From positions 1 through 57,193 of the forward strand of contig QHPD01000107.1 in the NCBI GenBank assembly GCA_003218975.1: a stretch of 57,193 bases of DNA. The letters run 5' to 3'. Under the pieces are notes generated by a model that was given only the letters and a program-made list of their open reading frames with translations, was not told the DNA's origin and did no database searches. Position numbers and translations under genes: made by a program. Each line of letters starts with the position of its first letter. Within the stretch, counting starts at the first letter, position 1. The DNA comes from Verrucomicrobiota bacterium (GTDB taxonomy: Bacteria > Verrucomicrobiota > Verrucomicrobiia > Chthoniobacterales > UBA10450). This document shows, in pieces, positions 4,041 to 57,193 of this stretch.

Positions 4041-4620
4041 TTAGTCCACCTTTTTATCAGTGACGCTTTGCACTGAAGCTTTGTGGTTCGCGTCGAATGC
4101 AATCGTCACAGTTTCAGAGCAATGGTGTTCGTTCCCGCCTTCGGTTAACCATGACTCATCGATGACGACCACGAGCGCCCTGGATTTTAACCACTGTTTG
4201 GGCGACGTTGTGGCTTCGGTGGTCTTCAGATATTTCTCGTCCCCTTCGGCCTTCGAATTGCCATCGCATTCCCCAAGCTCAGATTGAGGGAACTCTACCT
4301 GCTCAAATTTCGAGCCATTTCGAAAATAGATGCTCGTTGTGCCGCCACGTCGATCAGGCTCAAAATAAGCGACGAGCGTTGAATCTTTCGACCATAAGAG
4401 CCGCATGTCTGCGATGTAGTTGCCGTAAACTTCAAGGTCGGCTAATGGCTTCTTGGCTCGTAAATCCACAATTGCCGCTTCCCAGCCCTCCTCGCCTTTC
4501 CTGATGCGTAAAAGCGAATCGCCCGTCTGGCGACTTATCTTTTATCAGGTCTTTGCCTTCGAGCGACTGAGCCAGACCTATGAGAATTAGAATAGATATC
4601 GAGAGCAGCTTTGTTTTCAT
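4041..4620 (-). pseudogene. Small secreted paralogue split by a frameshift
   Basis: The ATG at 4620 opens a signal peptide (MKTKLLSISILILIGLAQSL) followed by KDLIKDKSPDGRFAF, matching the start of the neighbour at 3443-4033. That frame then runs into an unrelated short tail ending at 4432. The rest of the homology (EEGWEAAIVDLRAKK..., WSKDSTLVAYFE, YFRNGSKF, VTIAFDANHKASVQ) continues in another frame down to 4041. The switch lies near 4505-4520. Either a one-base indel has inactivated the gene or there is a sequencing error; the downstream frame has no further stops, which fits a recent or artefactual change. Annotated as one broken gene. Confidence 0.65.
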
Positions 4621-4778
4621 ATTTATTGCGTTGGGGCCTATTGGTCAGCAAAATGTTCACCGCGCTGGTGCTCCACATTTGAATCTATAAGGCATTAATG
4701 TTTGGCCAATCACCCATTGCCGCCACGCGCCGAAACCCTGTTCACGAGGGCGAGCGCAAACTAGCCGGCGAAAGAACT

Positions 4779-6443
4779 TCAGGTCGGACTGGACGAAGGA
4801 GTTGGCTGCGGCGATGCAGATTTGGTCTTGTTTTTTTGCCGAATTTCTGTGGCGCGCTGTCGGAGCGGATCGGCCTTTGCCTTGTCACCCATCGCTTCGT
4901 AAAGCTTGGCGAGGTCGTTGAGACAAGTGGCGGTCTCAGAATGTTCCGGGCCTCGAGCTTTTTCGGTAACCTCGACTGCGCGCAGGGCGTACGATTCGGC
5001 CTTCTTGTATTCGCCTTTTTCACGATAAAGGACACCGAGATTGTCGAGAGCCGCGCCAGTCTTGTAGTGATTGGGTCCGAGTTTATCCTCAAAAAGCTTT
5101 AATCCCTTCTGAAACATCGGTTCGGCTTTGTCGTATTTACCCATGCCTTCATAAATTGCGGCCAGGTTATTGTACGCGGTCGCCGTCATCTGGTGCGTCG
5201 GTCCAAATTTCTTTTCGGAAAGCTGCAAGGCACGTTGGGCCAAGGGTTCAGCCTTGGCGTAATCTTTTTCGAGCCGATACAGGTCTGCCAAACCACCAAT
5301 GCTCGAGACCAGGTCGGGATTGTTTGGTCCCAAAGCTTTTTCGCGAATCTTCAAGGCCCGCTGATAATATGGCTCGGCTTTTTTGTAGTCGCCCATCATT
5401 TGGTAGAGCACTCCCAGGTTGTTGAGCGAAGAAGCGGTATTTGGATGTTCGGGACCGGCAGCTTGTTCGGTGATCTTAAGGGAGCGCTGAAAGAATGGCT
5501 CGGCCTTGCTGTAGTCACCACCGTCCATATAAACCCAAGCCAGGTTGTTAATGCTTTCGCCGGTAGCCGGATTATTCGGGCCAAAAATTTTCTCGCGTGT
5601 CTCGAGTGCCTGTTTAAACAGCGACTCGGCCTTTACCAGGTCGCCTTGACTAAGGTAAATCGCGCCGAGATTGTTCTGGATATTCGCGGTGTGGGGATGT
5701 TCAGCGCCGAACGCCTTTTCGTAGATCTTCAATGCGCGCTCATACATCGGTTCAGCCTTCGCGAAGTTGCCTTGATGATAATAGAGTGTGGCCAGGTTGC
5801 TCAGGCTGTTGGCAACCTGAGGATTATCGGGGCCCAGGGTCTCCTCGCGCATTTTTAAGACGCGCACATATAACGGCTCCGCCTTAGCCGAATCTCCTTT
5901 ATCTTGGTAGAGGAGCGCGAGGTTGCTCATGCCTGATAGGGTGTTCGGATGCTTTGGCCCAAGTTTGGCCTCCCAAATCTTTATTGCGCGTTTGTAGAGC
6001 GGCTCTGCCTTGGCGAAGTCGCCGCTCTCCCGATAAGTCTCGGCAAGATTGTTAAGGCTGATCGCGGTATATGGATGGTCGGGTCCGAGCGCTTTTTCCC
6101 TAATCTTCAAGGCGCGTTGGTAAAGGGGCAAAGCTTTGGCTTGTTCACCCATCGAGCTGAACAAGAACGCGAGATCGTTCAAGCTATCCGCGGTTTCCGA
6201 ATGTTCCGGGCCATAATTCTTCTCGCAATACTTCAACACCTGCTCGGCGATTGGCACTGCTTCCTGAAATTTGCCCGCGCTTCTCAACTCCTCGATTTGA
6301 TGAGTCTTTTCACGAACGTCTTCGCTATCCTGCGCAGCGGCTGCACTAAGACACAACGCAGCCGCGCAGAAACAGGCGATGCGACGCAGCCGGCGATTAG
6401 TCAAGCGCTGGGACCCCGAAAGCTTGTCAGCCAGTTCTTTCAT
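4779..6443 (-). CDS. Exported TPR protein of kinesin-light-chain repeat type
   Basis: 554 residues from the ATG at 6443. The frame extends further upstream, but this start places a basic N-terminus and hydrophobic stretch (IACFCAAALCLSAAAA) as a signal peptide. The mature part is 11 consecutive 42-residue repeats of the TPR_10/TPR_12 kind, each with the pattern A-x-x-L-x-x-R-A-L-x-I-x-E-K-x-x-G-P-x-H-P followed by S-L-N-N-L-A-x-x-Y. The tail is rich in S, P and T. Such repeats form a superhelical protein-binding surface, so a periplasmic scaffold role is likely; the partner is unknown. The repeat periodicity also produces long spurious reading frames on the opposite strand, which I left out. 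Confidence 0.85.
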   Translation of the reverse strand: MKELADKLSGSQRLTNRRLRRIACFCAAALCLSAAAAQDSEDVREKTHQIEELRSAGKFQEAVPIAEQVLKYCEKNYGPEHSETADSLNDLAFLFSSMGEQAKALPLYQRALKIREKALGPDHPYTAISLNNLAETYRESGDFAKAEPLYKRAIKIWEAKLGPKHPNTLSGMSNLALLYQDKGDSAKAEPLYVRVLKMREETLGPDNPQVANSLSNLATLYYHQGNFAKAEPMYERALKIYEKAFGAEHPHTANIQNNLGAIYLSQGDLVKAESLFKQALETREKIFGPNNPATGESINNLAWVYMDGGDYSKAEPFFQRSLKITEQAAGPEHPNTASSLNNLGVLYQMMGDYKKAEPYYQRALKIREKALGPNNPDLVSSIGGLADLYRLEKDYAKAEPLAQRALQLSEKKFGPTHQMTATAYNNLAAIYEGMGKYDKAEPMFQKGLKLFEDKLGPNHYKTGAALDNLGVLYREKGEYKKAESYALRAVEVTEKARGPEHSETATCLNDLAKLYEAMGDKAKADPLRQRATEIRQKNKTKSASPQPTPSSSPT

Positions 6444-8666: not shown

Positions 8667-10517
8667 CTAACCGCGCCGCTCGCGAATTGATTGAACAATA
8701 TCACCGATTGCTTCGTTGCGTGGCTTGGCGCCAAGGTTGCCTTTTCCATGAATGCGGACGCTCACGGCATCGGCGTCCATGTCGCGCTTTCCAATCACGA
8801 ACATAGTGTGCACTTTCATTTGTTCGGCGCGCTGGATTTTGCCGTTGATCTTGTCGGGGCTTTCGTCGATTTCCGCGCGAACTTGATGGCCGCGCAGTTC
8901 GTGCAGAATAGATCGTGCGTAATCCATTAACTTGGGATCATCGCCGATCGTGAGAATGCGCACCTGTTCAGGAGATAACCAGAGCGGGAAATTGCCGGCG
9001 TAATGCTCGATCAAGAATCCGATGAAGCGCTCGTGCGTGCCAAGCGGCGCGCGATGAATGCAGATTGGGGTTTTGTCGATGTTGTCACGGTCTTTGTAAA
9101 CCAGATTCAACCGGCGCGGCTGGGCGAAATCGACCTGATTGGTCGCGATGGAGAATTCGCGTCCGATCACGCTCCAGGCTTGCACATCAATCTTCGGCCC
9201 GTAGAACGCTGCTTCGTTCGGCACTTCGACGTAATTAATGCCGGAGCTCTTTAGAACGTTTCGCGTCATCTCTTCGGTTTGTTTCCAAAGCTCGGGCTCA
9301 TCCACAAACTTTTCGCCGAGCTTGGATGGATCGTGCGTCGAGAAACGCATCAGGTATTTCTCGATGCCGAAGAGTTTGAAATAATTCAGGTACATTTCGT
9401 TCACGGCATTGAATTCCGCTTCGAACTGTTCCGGCGTCATGTAAATGTGCGCGTCGTTCATCTGCAGTGACCGCACCCGCATCAGTCCGAATAACTCGCC
9501 GCTCTTCTCGTACCGATAGCAGGTGCCGTACTCCGCGAAGCGTAACGGCAGATCGCGGTAGCTCCGGGGAACCGCCGCAAACAATTTGTGATGATGGGGA
9601 CAGTTCATTGCCTTGAGGTAGTACAAAGAAGCAGGCGTTCCGTGATCTCTCTCTCCAAGCCGCGCTTCCTCCAGCTCCATCGGCGGGAACATCGACTCGG
9701 CGTAATAGGGAAGGTGACCGCTTTTTTTGTACAAGCTCTCCCGCGCGATGTGCGGGGTGCGAACGCGTTGATAACCGGCGGCGAACTCCGTTTCCTTGGC
9801 GAGCTTTTCCAATTCTTCGGCGATGACCGCGCCGCGCGGGAGAAACATCGGCAAACCTGGACCGACATCATCATCGAAAACGAAAAGCTCCAGCTCCCGG
9901 CCAAGCTTGCGATGATCGCGTTTCTTCGCTTCCTCGAGCATTGCGAAATAATCATCGAGTTCCTTTTTCGTTTTGAAGGCGGTGCCGTAAACGCGCTGCA
10001 ACTGCGGATTCTTTTCGTCGCCTTTGTAGTACGCGCTCGCCACGCTCGTGACTTTGAAAGCTCCGATCTCTCCCGTGCATTTCACATGCGGGCCGGCGCA
10101 GAGATCGATGAAGTCGCCACTGCGATAGAGCGAGATTTTTTCATCGGGCGGAATGTTTTCGATAATGTCGAGCTTGAATTTACTGGGCTCGGATCGTTCG
10201 CTTAGCGCCGCGAGCCGGCCTTTCTTGCCGAGTTCGAGCGCTTCGTCCCTTGAAACCTCCATCCGCTCGAACGGACGGTTCGCTTTGATCTCCTCTTTCA
10301 TTTCAGCTTCGATCTTTTCGAAATCGTCGGGCGAGATCCGGTGTGGAAGATCGACATCATAATAAAAGCCGTTCTCCACCGGTGGCCCTGCGGCGAACTG
10401 CGCTTCCGGCCAAATTTTCAAAATCGCCGTCGCCAGTACGTGGGACGCCGAGTGGCGGAGCCGCTCGAGGTCCGTCATTTGCGTACGTGCTTCTAAATTT
10501 TTGCGTTCTTCCTTCAT
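8667..10517 (-). CDS. thrS: Threonyl-tRNA synthetase lacking the N-terminal TGS domain
   Basis: 616 residues from the ATG at 10517. The cytoplasmic class II synthetase charges tRNA-Thr. The N-terminal editing domain starts almost at once (HSASHVLA near residue 20 and CAGPHV near residue 140 give the HxxxH and C/H metal-site residues). It is followed by the class II core with AMNCPHHH (the catalytic zinc cysteine) and YRYEKSGELFG, the conserved DAHIY segment, and a C-terminal anticodon-binding domain. The usual ~60-residue TGS domain is absent and no alternative upstream start supplies it. The extra upstream frame is intergenic sequence containing a palindromic repeat. Two partial copies of its 3' end lie downstream. 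Confidence 0.95.
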   Translation of the reverse strand: MKEERKNLEARTQMTDLERLRHSASHVLATAILKIWPEAQFAAGPPVENGFYYDVDLPHRISPDDFEKIEAEMKEEIKANRPFERMEVSRDEALELGKKGRLAALSERSEPSKFKLDIIENIPPDEKISLYRSGDFIDLCAGPHVKCTGEIGAFKVTSVASAYYKGDEKNPQLQRVYGTAFKTKKELDDYFAMLEEAKKRDHRKLGRELELFVFDDDVGPGLPMFLPRGAVIAEELEKLAKETEFAAGYQRVRTPHIARESLYKKSGHLPYYAESMFPPMELEEARLGERDHGTPASLYYLKAMNCPHHHKLFAAVPRSYRDLPLRFAEYGTCYRYEKSGELFGLMRVRSLQMNDAHIYMTPEQFEAEFNAVNEMYLNYFKLFGIEKYLMRFSTHDPSKLGEKFVDEPELWKQTEEMTRNVLKSSGINYVEVPNEAAFYGPKIDVQAWSVIGREFSIATNQVDFAQPRRLNLVYKDRDNIDKTPICIHRAPLGTHERFIGFLIEHYAGNFPLWLSPEQVRILTIGDDPKLMDYARSILHELRGHQVRAEIDESPDKINGKIQRAEQMKVHTMFVIGKRDMDADAVSVRIHGKGNLGAKPRNEAIGDIVQSIRERRG

Positions 10518-29128: not shown

Positions 29129-29149
29129 GGCTGAGCGGCCTGGTTAAGC
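29129..29149 (-). other. attC-like R''/L'' half site at the end of the Nudix gene
   Basis: On the minus strand the sequence GCTTAACCAGGCCGCTCAGCC matches the R''-spacer-L'' end of the three full attC-like sites in this window (GYCTAACCARKCGMTGSAGCY). The Nudix stop codon TAA is embedded in it, as is common in integron cassettes. No matching R' end could be found further on. Confidence 0.45.
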
Positions 29150-29590
29150 GTCTGCCTGGCTACAAAAATGAGCGACCAGAGACTCTGCACTATTGAACAC
29201 ACGAACTATCCCGCGGTGACCGTCAAAAGCATCGTCAATCCGCACACGCGTATTGAACGCGAGAGTGCGTGGTAACCCGCTTCTTGTGAAGAACGAAACT
29301 TCGGAAATCTCAGGGAGACAGGGTTGAGGAGTGCCGCGAATTAGTGCGGCAGCAAATGAAAGGACGAGATCGTCTCGATATGGTTTGGCATAGACGCCAA
29401 TGAGATGCTCGATGCGCACGTCACACGCGATTTCTTCAAGTGTTTCGTGTTCGAGCGCGACAAGGAGAGACTCGCCGGCGTCGACACGTCCACCGGGCGT
29501 AGTCCACTGCCGCGATCCGTAGGCCTGGCGCACAAGAAGAATGCGGCTTGTCTCGTCGAAAATAGAAGCAAAAACACCGAGCGTGTACAT
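29144..29590 (-). CDS. Nudix hydrolase in a cassette-like context
   Basis: 148 residues. The Nudix box is GGRVDAGESLLVALEHETLEEI, fitting G-x5-E-x7-R-E-U-x-E-E-x-G-U except that the first arginine is histidine. The hydrophobic N-terminal strand (TLGVFASIFDETSRILLVRQA) and TTPGG are typical. The family hydrolyses nucleoside diphosphate derivatives; the substrate is not evident. The gene is bracketed by an attC R'-type box (CTCGTTAGGC) about 8 bases before the ATG and an R''/L''-type half site over its stop, so it looks like a mobile cassette on the minus strand. Confidence 0.85.
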   Translation of the reverse strand: MYTLGVFASIFDETSRILLVRQAYGSRQWTTPGGRVDAGESLLVALEHETLEEIACDVRIEHLIGVYAKPYRDDLVLSFAAALIRGTPQPCLPEISEVSFFTRSGLPRTLAFNTRVRIDDAFDGHRGIVRVFNSAESLVAHFCSQADA

Positions 29591-29597
29591 CGGTCGC

Positions 29598-29604
29598 GCC
29601 TAAC
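29598..29604 (-). other. attC R'-like box before the Nudix start
   Basis: On the minus strand, TTCTCGTTAGGCGC contains GTTAGGC, matching GTTRRRY, with the same CTCG lead as in the full sites at 31266, 31939 and 56764. It lies 8 bases before the ATG of the Nudix gene. The corresponding left half is not recognisable; a hairpin (GCGCGTTTAAAGACGCGC) sits in the gap after the upstream VOC gene. Confidence 0.4.
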
Positions 29605-29645
29605 GAGAACTAGATCCAATTAGCGCGTCTTTAAACGCGCATCTT

Positions 29646-30601: not shown

Positions 30602-30616
30602 GGCCGTAGGGTGCTG

Positions 30617-30623
30617 GTCTAAC
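30617..30623 (-). other. attC R'-like box before the frameshifted secreted gene
   Basis: On the minus strand AACGTTAGACC contains GTTAGAC, fitting GTTRRRY, 16 bases before the ATG at 30601. It lacks the CTCG lead of the better sites, and no L' or left half is seen. Listed because its placement before a start repeats that of the other boxes. Confidence 0.3.
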
Positions 30624-30654
30624 GTTTCTTTGCTTTAGATTAGCGCGTTGATTC

Positions 30655-30762
30655 GCCTCTCCTTTTCCAAGGGAGAGGGTAGGGTGAGGGTTTGCGACTG
30701 ACTTCTTTACTGTTTCGGAACCCTCACCTCAATCCTCTCCCCTTCAGCAAGGGGAGAGGTGA
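30655..30762. repeat. Inverted repeat built on CTCTCCC/GGGAGAG and CCCTCACC
   Basis: Two arms face each other: CTCTCCTTTTCCAAGGGAGAG with GGTGAGGGT, then ACCCTCACC with CTCTCCCCTTCAGCAAGGGGAGAG. Each arm is itself a hairpin and the arms are complementary. This is a dispersed intergenic type that I recall from many environmental genomes. It fills most of the 280-base gap between two small cassette genes; nothing else is visible there. Confidence 0.6.
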
Positions 30763-30827
30763 CCAGAAATCGGCATTTTCTTTCGGAGCTTTTGTACATG
30801 AAGCGACTAGTGACGCACTACGCCAGG

Positions 30828-30860
30828 ATCTAACGAGACCAAGCTCACGAACGGCTCCGC
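30828..30860 (-). other. attC L'-R' half site after a small secreted gene
   Basis: The minus strand reads GTGAGCTTGGTCTCGTTAGATC, closely matching the L'-R' end of the complete sites (GGCTGAGCTTTGTCTCGTTAGGC in the 56.8 kb site). The left half that should follow the stop at 30882 is not recognisable, so the site is degenerate or partly deleted. Confidence 0.5.
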
Positions 30861-30881: not shown

Positions 30882-31262
30882 TTATCGTTCTTCATCGACG
30901 TGTTCGAGGCCAATGCGCGTCAGACGATACACGCCGCCGTAAACGATCTCAGTGCGTGTGAGCTTTTGAATCGGGTAGCGCTCTTCTTTCCAAGGCGGCG
31001 GTAGCTCGCCTCCCAAATACGTGGTGCTTATCACAAGCGTATGATTCTCGATTCTCCACCGGCCGTGCGTCACGCGTGGCTCGGGTCCGTTCGGATCAGG
31101 TTTGCCCATCCACCAGGTTCCGTCTGCAAGATAAAGATAATCATGGCGTGGCGAGCGCCACGCCCCAACCATCAAACGCGACAGCTCGCGATCGCTTTGT
31201 TCGCCACCACGAACTGAGGCTGCGACCGTCAGTGCTGCTAGAAGAACCGCAACAGCGCGCAT
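30882..31262 (-). CDS. Small secreted cassette protein of unknown function
   Basis: 126 residues from the ATG at 31262. An in-frame ATG six codons upstream lies inside an attC-like site and is rejected. The signal peptide is MRAVAVLLAALTVAASVRG. The mature protein includes LMVGAWRSPRHDYLYLADGTWWMG and HGRWRIENHTLVIST, a pattern (G-x-W-x-x...D-G-T...G-x-W-x-I-x-x-x-x-L) typical of lipocalin-like or META-type barrel proteins that sense or bind small molecules. That reading is tentative. The gene sits between attC-like sites on the minus strand, as a cassette would. Confidence 0.65.
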   Translation of the reverse strand: MRAVAVLLAALTVAASVRGGEQSDRELSRLMVGAWRSPRHDYLYLADGTWWMGKPDPNGPEPRVTHGRWRIENHTLVISTTYLGGELPPPWKEERYPIQKLTRTEIVYGGVYRLTRIGLEHVDEER

Positions 31263-31265
31263 ATT

Positions 31266-31388
31266 ACCTAACGAGAACAAGATGAGCTGCCGCGAGCGAG
31301 GGCGCGCGTCGCCGATGGCTGAAGGGTTGAACTCATGTAAAGATGGGTATAACGGCTGCTCGCGGTGAGCTCCATCGACTGGTTAGAC
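31266..31388 (-). other. attC-like integron recombination site
   Basis: On the minus strand the site runs from R'' GTCTAAC (CAGTCGATGGAGCTCACCGCGAGC follows as the L'' arm) to the complementary GCTCGCGGCAGCTC arm and CTCGTTAGGT (R'). The outer boxes fit RYYYAAC and GTTRRRY, and the arms pair over about 15 bases with a bulge. It starts one base after the TGA of the upstream cassette gene and ends three bases before the ATG of the next, exactly as in an integron array. Confidence 0.75.
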
Positions 31389-31389
31389 C

Positions 31390-31932
31390 TCACGGATGAT
31401 TCGGAGTAGTGACGTTGTCCGAGATAAACAAGTAGGAAGTGACGAGTTCTCGAAAGGCCTTCTCAGAAGATTTCAAATCGTCCTTCTTCTCTGCGCTGGC
31501 GACGAAAACTGTGATCGTCTTCGACTGTTCAGCGTATGCGACCCGCTCAAAGTAACCGCCTCCTGAGAAGGAATAGATGGGGATTTCTTTTCCGTCAGAG
31601 AGACGTGCCGAGCCAACCTTCTTTGATTCTGCATTTGGATGGTGTTCCTGTATGCCGCGCAGGTCGAATTTGTTTAGCTCTTCGATGTTGTTGACATGCA
31701 GCTGAGCTTTGTCCGCGGAGCGGACATACATTATGACGGGTGTGCTCTCGAACGTCTTGTCCGCCGGATAAAACGCCGCTTGCAGCTGACGCGTGGAAGT
31801 CATGTGCCAACCATCCGGCGCGCGAATCGAGAACGAGTAATTCGGGCCGTCGAGTATCGCGGCATCATCGGCGGCGCGCGCAAATGATCAAAGCGCGATA
31901 AGAACAATGGCGAACGTAAGAGGAAGCGTCAT
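31390..31932 (-). pseudogene. Small secreted cassette protein with an in-frame TGA in its signal peptide
   Basis: The ATG at 31932, seven bases after an attC-like R' box, opens MTLPLTFAIVLIAL, a signal peptide, then a TGA (31890-31888), then continues in the same frame as SFARAADDAAILDGPNYSFS and a full protein ending ISDNVTTPNHP at 31390. The mature part includes APDGWHM, VIMYVRSADKAQLHV, and FSGGGYFERVAYAEQSKTITVFVASA. A later ATG (31803) could start a cytoplasmic version, but the N-terminal part is clearly coding. Nonsense mutation, sequencing error or, less likely, readthrough. About 180 residues without the stop. Function unknown. Confidence 0.65.
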
Positions 31933-32439
31933 GAGGTGGCCTAACGAGAGAAAGCTCAGCCGCTGCGCCTGACAGCGAGCGGGATTTGAAATGAAAAAGG
32001 TTCTCGCGAACTCGAAGCGAAACAAAGCGCCGGGAAGCGGTCGGCTGCAGCGCCTGGTTAGACCCGTCATGGCTTCAAGTGAAGCAGTGCTTTTACCAAG
32101 TCCGTTAGCGCCGGGCTGAAAATTGCCGAGAAGATAGCCGCCGATCAGCAAACCAACTTTCTTAAGTCGGCCCAAGAACGACTGGCGTCGCTCCTCAGAC
32201 TTGAGTTGCTGCAGGAAGAGGCGACATTTGAGCGTGATTTCAGTCACGGTCACGCCCGTTGTCATGCCGCCCTTAGCTGCATCCCGAAATGGCACGCCTC
32301 GCAGATAGCCGGCATCGATGAGTTCCGAATAGAGCGCGGAATCTCGGTCTTCCGGTGCCGCTGATTCTTGTATTCCAGCGCGCTCGGAAAGCAGTCGGAT
32401 GTATGCGCGTCGAGCGGTTTCGGGCCTTTTCCATCTCAT
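31888..32439 (-). CDS. Hypothetical cassette protein, possibly winged-helix, reading through an attC site
   Basis: The frame opens at ATG 32439 (MRWKRPETARRAYIRLLSE). Residues about 35-80 (SALYSELIDAGYLRGVPFRD, GVTVTEITLKCRLFLQQLKSEERR) resemble the winged-helix-like fold of YjcQ/DUF2513-type proteins: a helix, then a strand with an I-T-x-K-G/C-x-x-F-L turn. After about residue 125 the frame passes straight through the attC-like site at 31939-32063 and ends only at the TGA inside the next gene's signal peptide, so the C-terminal ~55 residues are probably not native. A one-base shift would give a stop right at the attC edge. DNA binding is speculative. Confidence 0.45.
   Translation of the reverse strand: MRWKRPETARRAYIRLLSERAGIQESAAPEDRDSALYSELIDAGYLRGVPFRDAAKGGMTTGVTVTEITLKCRLFLQQLKSEERRQSFLGRLKKVGLLIGGYLLGNFQPGANGLGKSTASLEAMTGLTRRCSRPLPGALFRFEFARTFFISNPARCQAQRLSFLSLGHLMTLPLTFAIVLIAL
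31939..32063 (-). other. attC-like integron recombination site
   Basis: On the minus strand the site starts GTCTAACCAGGCGCTGCAGCC (R'' and L'') and ends GCGGCTGAGCTTTCTCTCGTTAGGC (L' and R'). The outer boxes fit RYYYAAC/GTTRRRY and the arms pair (GCTGCAGCCGACCGCTTCC region against AGCGGCTGAGC). It shares long identical stretches with the site at 56764-56869, showing one site family. It lies seven bases before the ATG of the next cassette gene. Confidence 0.78.
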
Positions 32440-32509: not shown

Positions 32510-32516
32510 GTCTAAC
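32510..32516 (-). other. attC R'-like box upstream of the hypothetical cassette gene
   Basis: The minus strand reads TTCTCGTTAGACTC, with GTTAGAC fitting GTTRRRY and the same TCTCG lead as the complete sites. It is followed by a 16-codon minimal frame and then the gene starting at 32439. No left half is seen between it and the cyclase stop at 32576. It would mark the upstream border of the cassette region. Confidence 0.4.
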
Positions 32517-32575
32517 GAGAAGTAGGCGAATATTCGTAAAAGATCACGAAGATTTCTTCACCTAACTCGGATCAA

Positions 32576-33418
32576 CTATATGGCGGCTTGCTTCCATGCA
32601 GCGGCATGGGCGCGGACTGGGTAACCGAAGCCTTTGAGGACAACTTCGCCAAGGTCTTCGAATTGGAGTCCTTTGCCGAGGCATAGCTCGGCAATTGCGT
32701 TCGTCACCAGGATTTGTTCCGGCTGCGCGTGGGCGCAGAGCCGGGCAGCCAGTTGAACGGTCGATCCAAAAAGATCGTTATGTTGTTCGACCGGTTCTCC
32801 TGCTGCGGCGCCGACTCGGACCTTGAGCGGGCGCTGAGGATTCGCTTGCGCATGTTTGGCCAATTCGCGTTGAATCTGGATTGCACTGCGAACGGCGCCC
32901 GCTGCCGATACGAACGAGGCCATGATGCCGTCGCCAGTGTGCTTGACTTCGCGGCCACCCAAATCGGCCAGCGCGTTTCGCACGACAGTGTTGTGCAAGT
33001 CGAGCAATTCCATGGCCGCCTCATCACCCAGCGATTGAGTCAATGTAGTAGATTCCACGATGTCCGTGAAGAGAACGGTCCGGATCCCAGGGTCGCGCGC
33101 ATCGGTTTCGCCGCCAGGCAAGATGGCTGCTCCCGCCGCATTCGTTTGGACATCGCCGAGAAATCCATCTGCGAGCTCGGGCTGTATCTCGATAATCTTT
33201 CGAGCGACGAGACCGTGCGCTTCACGGTGGCAGGAGTGTGCCGCTTCGGCATTCGGTGCCTCGACCAGACAGAAGACTTTCCCGCAATTCTCGTTAACCC
33301 AATATTTCAGGTAGTTGACACCGTACTTCTCTTGCGCTTCGAGATCCGCCAGGTGGGCTTTTGCGACGTCTTCGGCGGAAACTTCCCCCAGCTCGTGAAT
33401 GTCCATGTATAATGGCAT
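32576..33418 (-). CDS. DUF4242 domain fused to a class III adenylate/guanylate cyclase domain
   Basis: 280 residues. Residues 1-85 are a DUF4242 (SCO4226-like, ferredoxin-fold metal-binding) domain starting MPLYMDIHELGEVSAEDV and containing YWVNENCGKVFCLVEAP. Residues about 110-275 are a class III cyclase catalytic domain: TVLFTDIVESTTLTQSLGD supplies the first metal aspartate, and KHTGDGIMASF the second; RVGAAAGEPVEQHNDLFG and VQLAARLC follow. It has no membrane segment or receptor domain, so the DUF4242 part is probably the sensor or partner-binding module. cAMP is the likelier product but this cannot be fixed by eye. It is 11 bases downstream of osmC-like gene 33430-33942 on the same strand, probably co-transcribed. 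Confidence 0.88.
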   Translation of the reverse strand: MPLYMDIHELGEVSAEDVAKAHLADLEAQEKYGVNYLKYWVNENCGKVFCLVEAPNAEAAHSCHREAHGLVARKIIEIQPELADGFLGDVQTNAAGAAILPGGETDARDPGIRTVLFTDIVESTTLTQSLGDEAAMELLDLHNTVVRNALADLGGREVKHTGDGIMASFVSAAGAVRSAIQIQRELAKHAQANPQRPLKVRVGAAAGEPVEQHNDLFGSTVQLAARLCAHAQPEQILVTNAIAELCLGKGLQFEDLGEVVLKGFGYPVRAHAAAWKQAAI

Positions 33419-53371: not shown

Positions 53372-54946
53372 CTATCGGCTAAGCCGGGCTTCAGCCAGAT
53401 CGATATCACGTTGGATTCGGCGCAAGGCCTGGTCGTTGATGGCCTCTTCGTTGCGCAGTTCGATCACGGTGTCGCGTTCTGTTTGTAACACTTCGCGCGC
53501 CAATTCTTCGAAGTCTTCCGAGAACAATCTGCTGACGCTTTCTTCAGGCGGGGCTTCACTGCGAAGTTGTCGGATACGGTCTTCGTATTCTGAACGAAGA
53601 CGTTCTACGGTCTTGGGCCTAGCCCGATTCGACGATTCGATTGCCTCGAGACGAGCCAAGGCTGCTTCGTTGGCCTTCAAGCGCGCCAGTCTCTCTTCTT
53701 TTTCCGTAACGCGATCGTCCACAACGTTCAGCCAACGGACCAGAGGCGTAAGAATGAGTCCTTGGAGAACGAGCGTTGCGAAAATGACACAGAACGTCAG
53801 CAAGAGGATGAGGTCGCGTCCCGGGAATGGTTCGCCATTAGCCAGGACAAACGGGATGGCCAGCGCACCGGCAAGCGAATCCGCCCCGCGCATTCCGGTC
53901 CATGCGATCAACGCAGTCTGTTGCCAGGGAGCGCGGTTTTTACGGTGGAACGTTCGGTTCAGCAGCCGCGGCAAATAGGTGGCCCCGAACATCCAGACAA
54001 AACGAACCAGCACGATCACGGCAACAAACATGATCGCCAGCTGGGCTACGCGAGTCACCGTGCCCGGAGCGAGCGCGCGGATAACCTGCGGCAGTTGAAG
54101 CCCGATGAGCATGAAAAGGATTCCGTTCAAAATGAACGTGACCATTTCCCAAACAGGCAGCGCTTGCAGTCGCATGCGCCCGCTCAGGATCCGCGGGGCG
54201 CGCCACCCATAATAAATGCCGGCAATCACGACTGCTAGGATTCCGGAGACATTTAGCCTTTCACCACTGAAGTAGGCGACGTACGGCGTAAGCAGGGAGA
54301 ACATTGTTTGAACTGGTGGATCGTCCAAACGCTTTTGCAATTGCGTTGCCAGCCAGCCCACGGCCAGACCAACACAGATGCCGCCCGCGGCGACAAAAAG
54401 GAATCGCAAGCTCGCTTGCCCCAGCGAAAAGAAGCCGGTCATCACGGCGGCCACTGCGAAACGGAACGAGATAAAAGAAGTAGCGTCGTTTATCAGACTC
54501 TCGCCTTCGAGGATGACAATAATCTTGCGGGGCACCCGCAAAGTTTGAGCCACCGCCAGCGCTGCCACGGCGTCGGGCGGCGAGATGATTGCGCCGAACA
54601 CAAAACCCACCGCCAAAGGTAATCCGACCAGGCCGTGGAACAGATAAGCGGTCGCCGTCATCGTCAAAAGGACCAAAACGATTGCCAGAGGGAGAATGGA
54701 GCGAAGGTTCGCTCGGAAATCTCTCCAGGAGGTGTAGACGGCCGCGGGATAGAGCAGGGGCGGAAGAAACAGATTAAAGACCAGTTGCGGATCGAGATGG
54801 ATCGCAGGAAGGCCGGGGACCAGAGCGAGGACCACACCACCGATGGTCAGCAGAATTGGATATGGGATTCGGATTTTCCGGGCGACGATCGCCAGCAGAG
54901 CGACCGCAACGAGACAAATCAGGATTAATTCGGTTTTGTCTACCAT
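53372..54946 (-). CDS. Na+/H+ antiporter, CPA1 family, with long cytoplasmic tail
   Basis: 524 residues with about 12 membrane segments. The acidic ion-binding motif is in FGAIISPPDAVAALAV (P-D) and ILEGESLINDATSFISFRFAV (E-x-x-x-x-N-D), characteristic of NhaP/NHE-like antiporters. LVRWLNVVDDRVTEKEERLARL marks the transition to a ~110-residue helical tail (ALARLEAIESSNRAR, REVLQTERDTVIELRNEEAINDQALRRIQRDIDLAE). It exchanges Na+ or K+ for H+ at the inner membrane for pH and salt homeostasis. Monocistronic, as far as can be seen. Confidence 0.92.
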   Translation of the reverse strand: MVDKTELILICLVAVALLAIVARKIRIPYPILLTIGGVVLALVPGLPAIHLDPQLVFNLFLPPLLYPAAVYTSWRDFRANLRSILPLAIVLVLLTMTATAYLFHGLVGLPLAVGFVFGAIISPPDAVAALAVAQTLRVPRKIIVILEGESLINDATSFISFRFAVAAVMTGFFSLGQASLRFLFVAAGGICVGLAVGWLATQLQKRLDDPPVQTMFSLLTPYVAYFSGERLNVSGILAVVIAGIYYGWRAPRILSGRMRLQALPVWEMVTFILNGILFMLIGLQLPQVIRALAPGTVTRVAQLAIMFVAVIVLVRFVWMFGATYLPRLLNRTFHRKNRAPWQQTALIAWTGMRGADSLAGALAIPFVLANGEPFPGRDLILLLTFCVIFATLVLQGLILTPLVRWLNVVDDRVTEKEERLARLKANEAALARLEAIESSNRARPKTVERLRSEYEDRIRQLRSEAPPEESVSRLFSEDFEELAREVLQTERDTVIELRNEEAINDQALRRIQRDIDLAEARLSR

Positions 54947-55869: not shown

Positions 55870-56418
55870 TTAAATCTTGTTCGCATATTCATTTGCGAAC
55901 AACGCTGGCTGACCACCTGTGTGCAAGAACAGCACCGTCTCGTCCTTCTTGAAAAATCCTTTTCGGATCAAATCAATCATCCCCGCTGCTGCTCGTCCCG
56001 TATAGACTGGGTCCAACAAAAGCCCTTCGTAATTTGCAAATAGATGGATTGCTTCGCGTTCCTGTTCGGTTAACACAGCGTAGCCTGCTGCACAATAATC
56101 GACGTTTGCCAACACCTCAGCCGGAGTGAACTCAAACCGCTGCCCCAGCTTTTCACTGGCTGACGATGCCAGCTCTGAGACGTGGTTCTTCAGCCACTCT
56201 TCCGATTCATCAACACTAATTCCCAACACTTTGCCTTTATATCCAAACACACGGTGACCCAACACAAGTCCCGCATGTGTCCCAGCTGAGGATGTGGCAA
56301 ACACGATCCAGTCTGCATGGATGTTTTGCTTCATAAATTCTTTCATAGCGAACGCATATCCCAACGCATCGGTTGGACTCGATCCACCGTAGGGAACGAG
56401 ATAAGGTTTGATTCCATC
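55870..56418 (-). pseudogene. C-terminal fragment of a PLP-dependent D-cysteine desulfhydrase/ACC-deaminase-like enzyme
   Basis: The coding starts abruptly near 56418 with GIKPYLVPYGGSSPTDALGY, continues through WIVFATSSAGTHAGLVLG (a Ser/Thr/Gly PLP-phosphate loop) and ends LFLHTGGQPALFANEYANKI. This matches the second half of the DcyD/AcdS family. About 160 N-terminal residues, including the PLP lysine, are missing, and what precedes is the body of another gene (56419-56750) in a different frame. No functional enzyme is possible. Both fragments run on the minus strand downstream of an attC-like site. Confidence 0.75.
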
Positions 56419-56750
56419 GAACGAACCAAGCTGAAACCAGCAGCGGCGGCAAGCAGATAACCGAGACGACCCCAGAAATAGAAATGCGCACCGAGGATGG
56501 TCAGTAGACTATGATGGCCGGTGACGCGCGCGACAAAAACGAGCGCGGCGAAGAAGGGAAACGTCTCAAGAAAATTGGTCGTAGCTTGGCCGACGCGGTT
56601 CGCGACACCGCGCAATGGCGGAGCGTCTCCTTCGCGACTACCCGCTGTCCAGCGATAGGCGCGTTGCCAACTGATCAGATGTGAACTAGCGATTAAATGG
56701 ACCAGACCAAGAACGACGCTAGCAACGAGAAACCGTAACTCCGTGGTCAT
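56419..56750 (-). pseudogene. 5' part of a MAPEG-family membrane protein
   Basis: From ATG 56750: LRFLVASVVLGLVHLIASSHL, GSREGDAPPLRGVANRVGQATTNFLETFPFFAALVFVARVTG and FYFWGRLGYLLAAAAG match the MAPEG family (R-x-x-x-N-F-x-E-x-x-P, then R-x-x-Y). The homology ends after about 110 residues where the last helix should be, and the frame then runs briefly through the fused PLP-enzyme sequence to 56343. The full family length is about 130 residues, so the last segment is lost. The start lies 14 bases after an attC R' box, as in a cassette. Confidence 0.75.
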
Positions 56751-56763
56751 GCACGCGGATTAC

Positions 56764-56869
56764 GCCTAACGAGACAAAGCTCAGCCACCCAGCACCTTGA
56801 AGTCAAGAGGGTGCATAAAATCGATGGGCATCAACAAGGTGCTGGGTTGGCTGCAGCGCTTGGTTAGGC
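56764..56869 (-). other. attC-like integron recombination site with a perfect stem
   Basis: On the minus strand: CGCCTAACCAAGCGCTGCAGCC, an arm CCCAGCACCTTG paired perfectly with CAAGGTGCTGGG, then GGCTGAGCTTTGTCTCGTTAGGCG. R'' (GCCTAAC) and R' (GTTAGGC) are perfect complements; L'' and L' (GCTGCAGCC/GGCTGAGC) pair with a bulge. It lies between the hydrolase stop at 56916 and the MAPEG start at 56750, as expected for consecutive cassettes on the minus strand. The best example of the attC-like family in this window. Confidence 0.82.
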
Positions 56870-56915
56870 GACAGGTGTCATCATGGGCGAGATCACCGAA
56901 TGAAAACGTCAAATA

Positions 56916-57193
56916 CTAGGAACCGGCTTTTTTGCTCACTCCTTTAGAGGCGTCCTCAATCAGTTTTGCAACGACGGTGGGCTGCGACACATAGATCGCG
57001 TGACTACCCGCAACCTCGACGACTGTCGAACCCGCGCGCTTGGCCATGAAATGCTGCGCCGGTGGCGGAATCATCTTGTCCTCGGTCACGATCAAATACC
57101 AACTCGGCTTGGTCCTCCATGCCGCCTGACTGATCGTGCCACTGAGTGCATTGACACCCCACGGGACTTGGGAGTCAGCCATGAACGCTGCCT
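56916..57193 (-). CDS. Alpha/beta fold hydrolase, C-terminal part (partial at window edge)
   Basis: The frame is open to the window end; the ATG at 57182 is internal. The product contains ADSQVPWGVNALSGTISQAAW, KPSWYLIVTEDKMIPPPAQHFMAKR and VVEVAGSHAIYVSQP. The catalytic acid would be in TEDKMIPP and the histidine in GSHAIYVSQP. It resembles the large group of small alpha/beta hydrolases related to EstC/haloperoxidase-like enzymes. It is followed by an attC-like site, which suggests cassette cargo. Substrate unknown. Confidence 0.8.
   Translation of the reverse strand, partial: AAFMADSQVPWGVNALSGTISQAAWRTKPSWYLIVTEDKMIPPPAQHFMAKRAGSTVVEVAGSHAIYVSQPTVVAKLIEDASKGVSKKAGS

Follow-up and report, generated by a model that had tools for sequence, protein, structure and literature searches.

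A contig-end attC site and the scattered, mostly integrase-less cassette arrays of a Chthoniobacterales family

Introduction

Integrons are usually described as one cassette array adjoining one integrase. The window, that is the whole stretch of 57,193 nucleotides analysed here, is the entire contig C36 of an assembly of 3.06 Mb in 165 contigs, and it raises the question of whether this picture fits a member of the Chthoniobacterales. The first-pass annotation had called the hairpin at 56764-56869 a textbook attC-like site and had read its distance to the other sites of the window as a sign of cassettes scattered over the chromosome through the action of an integrase in many different positions. 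We asked whether the hairpin is an attC, what its position says about the array to which it belongs, and how cassettes, attI sites and integrase genes (intI) are arranged in this genome and its relatives.

Results

The R boxes of the hairpin, GCCTAAC (56764-56770) and GTTAGGC (56863-56869), had been described as perfect complements, and they pair with 0 mismatches; they also have the attC box forms RYYYAAC (R'') and GTTRRRY (R'). The perfect stem, given before as 12 bp, is an inner stem of 13 bp (ACCCAGCACCTTG/CAAGGTGCTGGGT), followed by outer stems of 5 bp (CAGCC/GGCTG) and 3 bp (GCT/AGC). The bulges expected in the L arms were seen as single extrahelical bases at 56848 and 56854 that split these stems. 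When the + strand was folded, as the annotation had proposed for the bottom strand, both bases, T and C, stood on the 3' arm, so that the cassette strand is the - strand and the folded "bottom" strand the + strand. DNA folding of the surrounding 117 nt gave z scores of -5.74 (+ strand) and -5.80 (- strand), and none of 200 dinucleotide shuffles folded as well on either strand. Within the window, arms like these (up to 3 mismatches) were found only here and at 31939-32063, with a chance expectation of 0.00 and 0.01 in 100 shuffles.

A first covariance model, made from seven sites of this genome, scored the site at 117.3 bits on the - strand and at 16 on the + strand. Because the site itself is in the training set of that model, a second model (R2) was built from 56 sites in contiguous genomes of genera g15-g17 of the same family, none from this genome; the first model, applied with an E limit of 1, had supplied these sites, weak matches included, and they are independent in sequence but not in selection. 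The R2 model gave 81.7 bits (E 8.9e-17), which upholds the attC identity for which a covariance search had been suggested. A terminator, the alternative named at the time, and a known RNA family were considered for the hairpin and rejected: Rfam gave no match at E<=1 around the site and none at the gathering score in the whole window, and no intrinsic terminator (GC stem, short loop, T run) was found in 56400-57193. The stretch 56764-56869 is a genuine, intact-looking attC. By itself it is ordinary, another member of the known integron sites.

Its surroundings are those of a cassette array (Table 1). On the - strand the order is the end of an alpha/beta hydrolase gene, 46 nt, the attC, 13 nt and a MAPEG gene; the site is located 3' of a cassette gene, with the hydrolase stop codon 46 nt ahead of R''. 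A complete homologue of the hydrolase gene precedes an attC on contig C130 (82% identity over 252 bp), and a complete MAPEG gene stands between attC-like sites of 20.7 and 18.4 bits in G016, a genome of the same genus (L150). In the window the MAPEG gene is fused to the 3' half of a PALP gene at about 56418-56432. The PALP gene is longer in G006 (320 aa) and, judged by DNA, in G017, with no attC matches beside these two longer genes; a search of this genome for the missing 5' half returned only a distant paralogue, 33% identical, on C115. The downstream border of the array is a MAPEG/PALP joint inside both genes and not an attG-like G^TT; barring a chimaeric assembly at this point, the joint that closes the array is the product of a deletion. 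The neighbouring genes are conserved in relatives, and no empty counterpart of the array could be defined among them because they have PALP on other contigs. In the same part of the window, the Na+/H+ exchanger gene at 53372-54946 has a second copy, 87% identical, at C134:1599-3215.

The upstream start of the array lies beyond the contig end, outside the assembly. The next attC is 24.7 kb off, close to the roughly 25 kb claimed before, but the contig end, only 324 bp from the site on its other side, had been left out of that account. With the contig end so near, the array is truncated and not demonstrably solitary, and its isolation says little; with cassette genes on both sides of the attC, the distance cannot serve as the sign of a scattered single cassette for which it had been taken. 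The end of C36 showed no overlap with the 12 other contig ends tested. A junction of C36 with the integrase contig C76 or with other array contigs was rejected for lack of shared 15-mers, and among the 13 contig ends compared in this way only those of C86 and C30 overlap, by 163 bp of one cassette.

Table 1: Features of the window and of two further contigs (positions are those of the window unless a contig is named)
Feature	Position	Strand	Remarks
attC	56764..56869	-	R'' 56869-56863, R' 56770-56764; 13+5+3 bp stem, two extrahelical bases
Alpha/beta hydrolase gene (PF12697), C-terminal part	56916..57191	-	cassette upstream of the attC, truncated by the contig end
MAPEG family gene, 3' end missing	56343..56750	-	next cassette gene after attC 56764
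PALP (PLP-dependent) enzyme gene, 3' half	55870..56418	-	fused to MAPEG
attI-like site without integrase	32510..32567	-	opens the array at 29-32.5 kb; has a TAGGT box, an inverted repeat and the core CCTAC-TTCTC-GTTAGAC
First ORF after this attI-like site	31888..32439	-	no Pfam match; 3' part overlaps the second attC
Second attC	31939..32063	-	arms as at 56764; 72.1 bits with the R2 model
Cassette gene	31390..31803	-	followed by the third attC (31388-31266)
Third attC	31266..31388	-	80.8 bits with the R2 model
Cassette gene	30882..31280	-	homologue 85% identical at the same locus in G020
Second attI-like core	29598..29613	-	TCTAG-TTCTC-GTTAGGC, without canonical upstream box
NUDIX cassette gene	29144..29590	-	then left-half attC remnant at about 29147-29110
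IS110-family element in attC left arm	L018 (C127) 8750-9850
IS110-family element in attC left arm	L117 (C130) about 4200-5360

The array at 29-32.5 kb carries two full attC sites and has no intI match, and so fits the definition of a CALIN, two or more attC sites with no integrase next to them. Its attI-like site comes directly after a cyclase gene (32576-33418) and has inverted L and R boxes ahead of the first cassette, as is the case beside real intI genes. No integrase was found by tblastn within 3 kb upstream of it, nor in any of the 21 stretches of this locus compared below. The second attI-like core follows a glyoxalase gene and lies ahead of the NUDIX cassette. An intergenic stretch inside the array (30613-30830) is a dispersed repeat, with matches at numerous unrelated positions in genomes of the genus.

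This genome has 13 covariance-model matches at 9 places on 7 contigs. Since several of these places are at contig ends, assembly breakage alone could mislead here; three lie clear of any contig end (C36 31 kb, C30 59 kb and C54 4.4 kb). At E<=0.01 all 35 genomes of the genus that were searched, this one included, gave attC matches, from 2 to 48 each, and in a sample of the order matches were present in 25 of 57 genomes, including 7/7 of the family. Of the 24 matches in the same-family genome G049, in 20 contigs, 22 are listed; they are spread over 13 places on 9 contigs, and one contig of 846 kb holds three of these places. In G053 (10 contigs), 10 of the 12 matches are listed and make up 6 places. 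The contiguous genomes of the family thus have attC sites at many places, some of them hundreds of kb apart on one contig, and they settle that the scattering is real. The claim of scattered cassettes on the chromosome stands, on this evidence and not on the 25 kb.

Several attC remnants and variants were observed along the way. Isolated halves lie inside long contigs, a right half in L019 (C53, 3396-3439) and a left half in L021 (C165, 3102-3124), and are probably remnants of further cassettes. The attC of L017 (C63, 3583-3686) has a left arm like that of the 56764 site and a right arm like that of the C30 site at 59423, and looks as if arms had been exchanged. On two contigs, C127 and C130, the left arm of an attC contains a transposase gene of the IS110 family (PF02371 in the C127 copy, the one tested); the two elements have nearly identical end sequences adjoining the attC remnant, and each looks like an attC-targeting insertion sequence.

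The first cassette of an array is often preceded by YCTAN-TTCTC-G^TTAGRY with an inverted repeat upstream. The exact core, CNANTTCTCGTTAG, was matched 72 times across 9 genomes, and the reversed control pattern 6 times; the exact pattern misses variants, and not all 72 are attI, several lying within genes by their flanks (L283, L309 and L363). Of these matches, 68 have 75 nt upstream and were used for further tests: 34 in attC loci, among them the window core at 29613, the weak locus L345 and the second L350 core, which is an attC arm, and 34 in other loci. A TAGRY box accompanied 25 of the 34 sites in attC loci, always at -41, -39, -47 or -18, where shuffles gave a mean of 5.6 and a maximum of 13. 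The box was also present at 15 of the 34 other sites, where shuffling gave 5.65 on average and no more than 12; in part these are true attI sites near the end of a contig, for example that of C76, which are counted in this group. The six bases after the box were complementary to the six before the core at 4.36 of 6 positions, compared with 2.85 of 6 for swapped arms (0/2000 permutations), in a sample that keeps near-identical and related sites. A strict palindrome score was first tried on 67 attI-like sites; only 11 of them scored 8 or 9 out of 9 positions and the short forms were missed, and the box and swapped-arm test took its place.

The same anatomy was found beside the integrases of C76, G053 C2, Udaeobacter L023, palsa_1379 L024, and also L031, with a variant core at L025, and the attI core is also present beside the C30 integrase. 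It was not found at L028, one of two palsa_1379 integrases. Altogether, 12 named integrase loci were checked: 4 show attI anatomy, 3 had <=221 nt, 4 are from other phyla, and the last is L028. Because like anatomy stands beside real integrases, the sites at array starts are, by their anatomy, attI. The listed attC places with an exact core no more than 3 kb away number 6/6 in G053, 5/13 in G049 and 2/9 in this genome (G000); contig ends and variants explain some of the places without an exact core, not surely all. At L280 (G079 C8) an attI-like core is placed about 55 bp past the 3' end of an intact integrase, in the same direction, the reverse of the usual intI/attI arrangement.

This genome encodes an intact integrase. 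The intI gene on C76 has an open frame, Pfam and TIGR02249 matches and 465.6 bits against a family cut-off of 265, and an intI above that cut-off in the genome is one of the marks of a chromosomal integron. Contig C76 ends 122 bp past the attI core. The gene on C30 (L016, 3799-4740) is open for 299 codons, lacks its N-terminal end and is fused directly to its attI, which cassettes still follow; a third integrase is truncated by the start of contig C38. The closest integrases in named genomes come from Verrucomicrobia (89% identity), Candidatus Udaeobacter (77%) and Spartobacteria (71%); the relevant named genomes are metagenome assemblies, and the remaining comparison genomes are mostly in many contigs. 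An integrase above the cut-off occurs in 10 of the 35 genomes of the genus. One such gene is present in each of G053, G071 and G079, and two in G062; the G053 gene has an open frame and that of G071 an internal stop. None above the cut-off was found in G049 or G085.

To see how many arrays adjoin an integrase, intI was sought at 37 array-start sites, in whatever sequence was available up to 3 kb before and 2.5 kb after the site (for L297 and L303 the upstream part is just 119 and 67 nt; C76, that is L015, and L280 were excluded). No match at all was obtained at 29 sites. The eight others comprise three long genes (C30, G053 C2 and G062 C18), two sites sharing one fragment (G062 C4) and three remnants, at array starts in G053, G071 and G085. 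These remnants retain the 5' end (residues 2-38 with a scrap of 300-320, 1-52 and 1-28) in the normal position and orientation of intI. Two other 5' stubs, marginal at E 0.064 and 0.34, were left out of this count; control matches reached 0.073. Hence at least some array starts without a full intI belong to integrons that have lost the gene, and because the 5' remnants persist at three of them, some arrays are relics of complete integrons and not landings elsewhere. The suggestion that an integrase acted at many places therefore fares unevenly: many arrays do start at attI-like sites, but three of the integrase-less ones keep 5' remnants of an intI of their own.

The SecA-glyoxalase-cyclase locus allowed one such site to be followed through relatives, in the window and 20 stretches of the same genus. 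In 7 of the 21 the cyclase-glyoxalase gap has neither cassettes nor attI; two of these (G013 and G010) have inserts on the SecA side instead. A related attI-like element stands after the cyclase gene in another 7 (window, G040, G020, G021, G006, G047 and G017), and in G040, G020 and G021 its core or spacer is altered. A different attI type, with a decayed R box, is present in G022; three stretches have inserts without a complete attI, and three do not include the cyclase gene. The intI-less attI after the cyclase gene is common to seven species, and different genes adjoin it. In G040 the conserved neighbour gene follows the attI directly, and G047 gave no clear first gene; elsewhere the first genes after G^TT are the ORF without Pfam match, an L-PSP endoribonuclease family member, a glyoxalase, a MauE-like protein and, below the curated cut-off, a DUF3052-like protein. 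No blastp match joins the first ORFs at these attI sites, while later cassettes are common to some genomes. In a tree of flank proteins the attI-bearing loci come together, with a support of 0.046 for the key split. The simplest reading is that of one old attI, inherited and reused. Alternatively, the cassettes could have been gained while an integrase was present, and intI lost later in each lineage separately. In G039, which has no cassettes at this locus, the glyoxalase-SecA gap resembles the second window attI up to TCTAATTC, without an R box, and may be either an empty or a decayed attI site.

Discussion

We consider it probable that genomes of this group carry several chromosomal integrons each, most of them without intI, and that their cassettes are exchanged in trans. 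At the site from which we started, the attC closes the alpha/beta hydrolase cassette and adjoins the MAPEG cassette on the - strand, in an array whose leading part lies past the contig end. By analogy with known attC sites, the + strand would be the one that folds for the integron integrase; the enzyme would bind it by way of the two extrahelical bases and make its cut in R' at G^TT. This array is one of several scattered over the chromosome and presumably starts at its own attI, as many arrays of the family do, with a TAGRY box, an inverted repeat and a YCTAN-TTCTC-G^TTAGRY core. Most of these attI sites lack an adjacent intI, probably through its loss, and a few keep 5' remnants. Cassettes at such sites would probably still be gained and lost, an intact IntI, in this genome that of C76, serving in trans. 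A wider reading, in which the whole family has a distributed integron of one or two intact integrases, or none, and of several to a dozen attI arrays that load and unload in trans, is more tentative, and we put it somewhat below an even chance.

It is plausible, from the sequences compared here, that an integrase still serves the arrays in trans, and those of some species may be inert relics, because G049 and G085 carry arrays but no integrase above the cut-off. If this held throughout, the small arrays would all be fossils of integrons without integrase, immobile now, and the differences between species would be old. The 5' intI remnants at array starts of G053, G071 and G085, the C30 gene without its N-terminal end, the internal stop in the G071 gene, the absence of an integrase above the cut-off from G049 and G085, and the half attC sites in the window, C53 and C165 all agree with such a history. 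We nevertheless regard it as unlikely in this general form, since the attC at 56764 is intact, this genome has an intact integrase, and seven species have the same intI-less attI with no match between their first ORFs.

The scatter could also arise if single cassettes were put at attG-type sites all over the chromosome. Such insertion is reported for other integrases (PMC12901181), cassettes do occur here at many chromosomal places, and no exact attI core is found within 3 kb at 8 of the 13 listed places in G049. Against this, many array starts have a specific attI anatomy that amounts to more than G^TT, the empty relatives at the cyclase locus lack both the element and the cassettes, and the visible, downstream border of the 56764 array is the MAPEG/PALP joint. 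Random insertion of the attG type is not supported, and we hold it to be highly improbable. Hardly credible at all is an artefact of assembly, in which one ordinary array was broken into pieces that landed on contig ends. The attC at 56764, 324 bp from such an end, and several other arrays placed likewise would invite this explanation, as would the cassette sequence common to the C86 and C30 ends; however, C36, C30 and C54 of this genome each have a place clear of contig ends, and contiguous relatives, with contigs up to 846 kb, are equally scattered.

Several known systems resemble parts of this arrangement. Sedentary chromosomal integrons have in common with it the family-specific attC with two extrahelical bases, an intact intI with attI beside it and co-oriented cassettes; they differ in that here there are many small arrays per chromosome, most starts are without intI, and the attI has an inverted repeat of varying sequence. 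CALINs are likewise attC clusters with no integrase in reach, as in the window at 29-32.5 kb, whereas many of the clusters here begin at a recognisable attI, some with intI remnants. CALINs occur commonly and are open to mobilisation in trans (PMC9668308, PMC12444791), and in Xanthomonas they are reported at seven loci besides the integron (PMC12444791). Insertion sites of the attG kind, described by Loot et al. (2024, as cited in PMC12901181), similarly bring cassettes to chromosomal places away from the integrase, but the array-start sites here have a defined attI anatomy. Sites resembling attI are said to be frequent across genomes (PMC10127599).

The elements in the attC left arms of C127 and C130 belong to the IS110 family and would share that position with what we take to be the IS1111-attC group of insertion sequences. 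A literature search whose scope left out most subscription papers turned up no description that we recognised of arrays with an intI-less attI in Verrucomicrobia. The distributed, mostly integrase-less arrays and attI sites of this Chthoniobacterales family are a new variant of integron organisation.

If attI outlives intI and stays usable in trans, a genome would have many insertion points. Cassettes would then be expressed from many contexts, and arrays without an integrase would not necessarily be dead. The intI-less attI after the cyclase gene, present in seven species with different first genes, makes use in trans directly testable.
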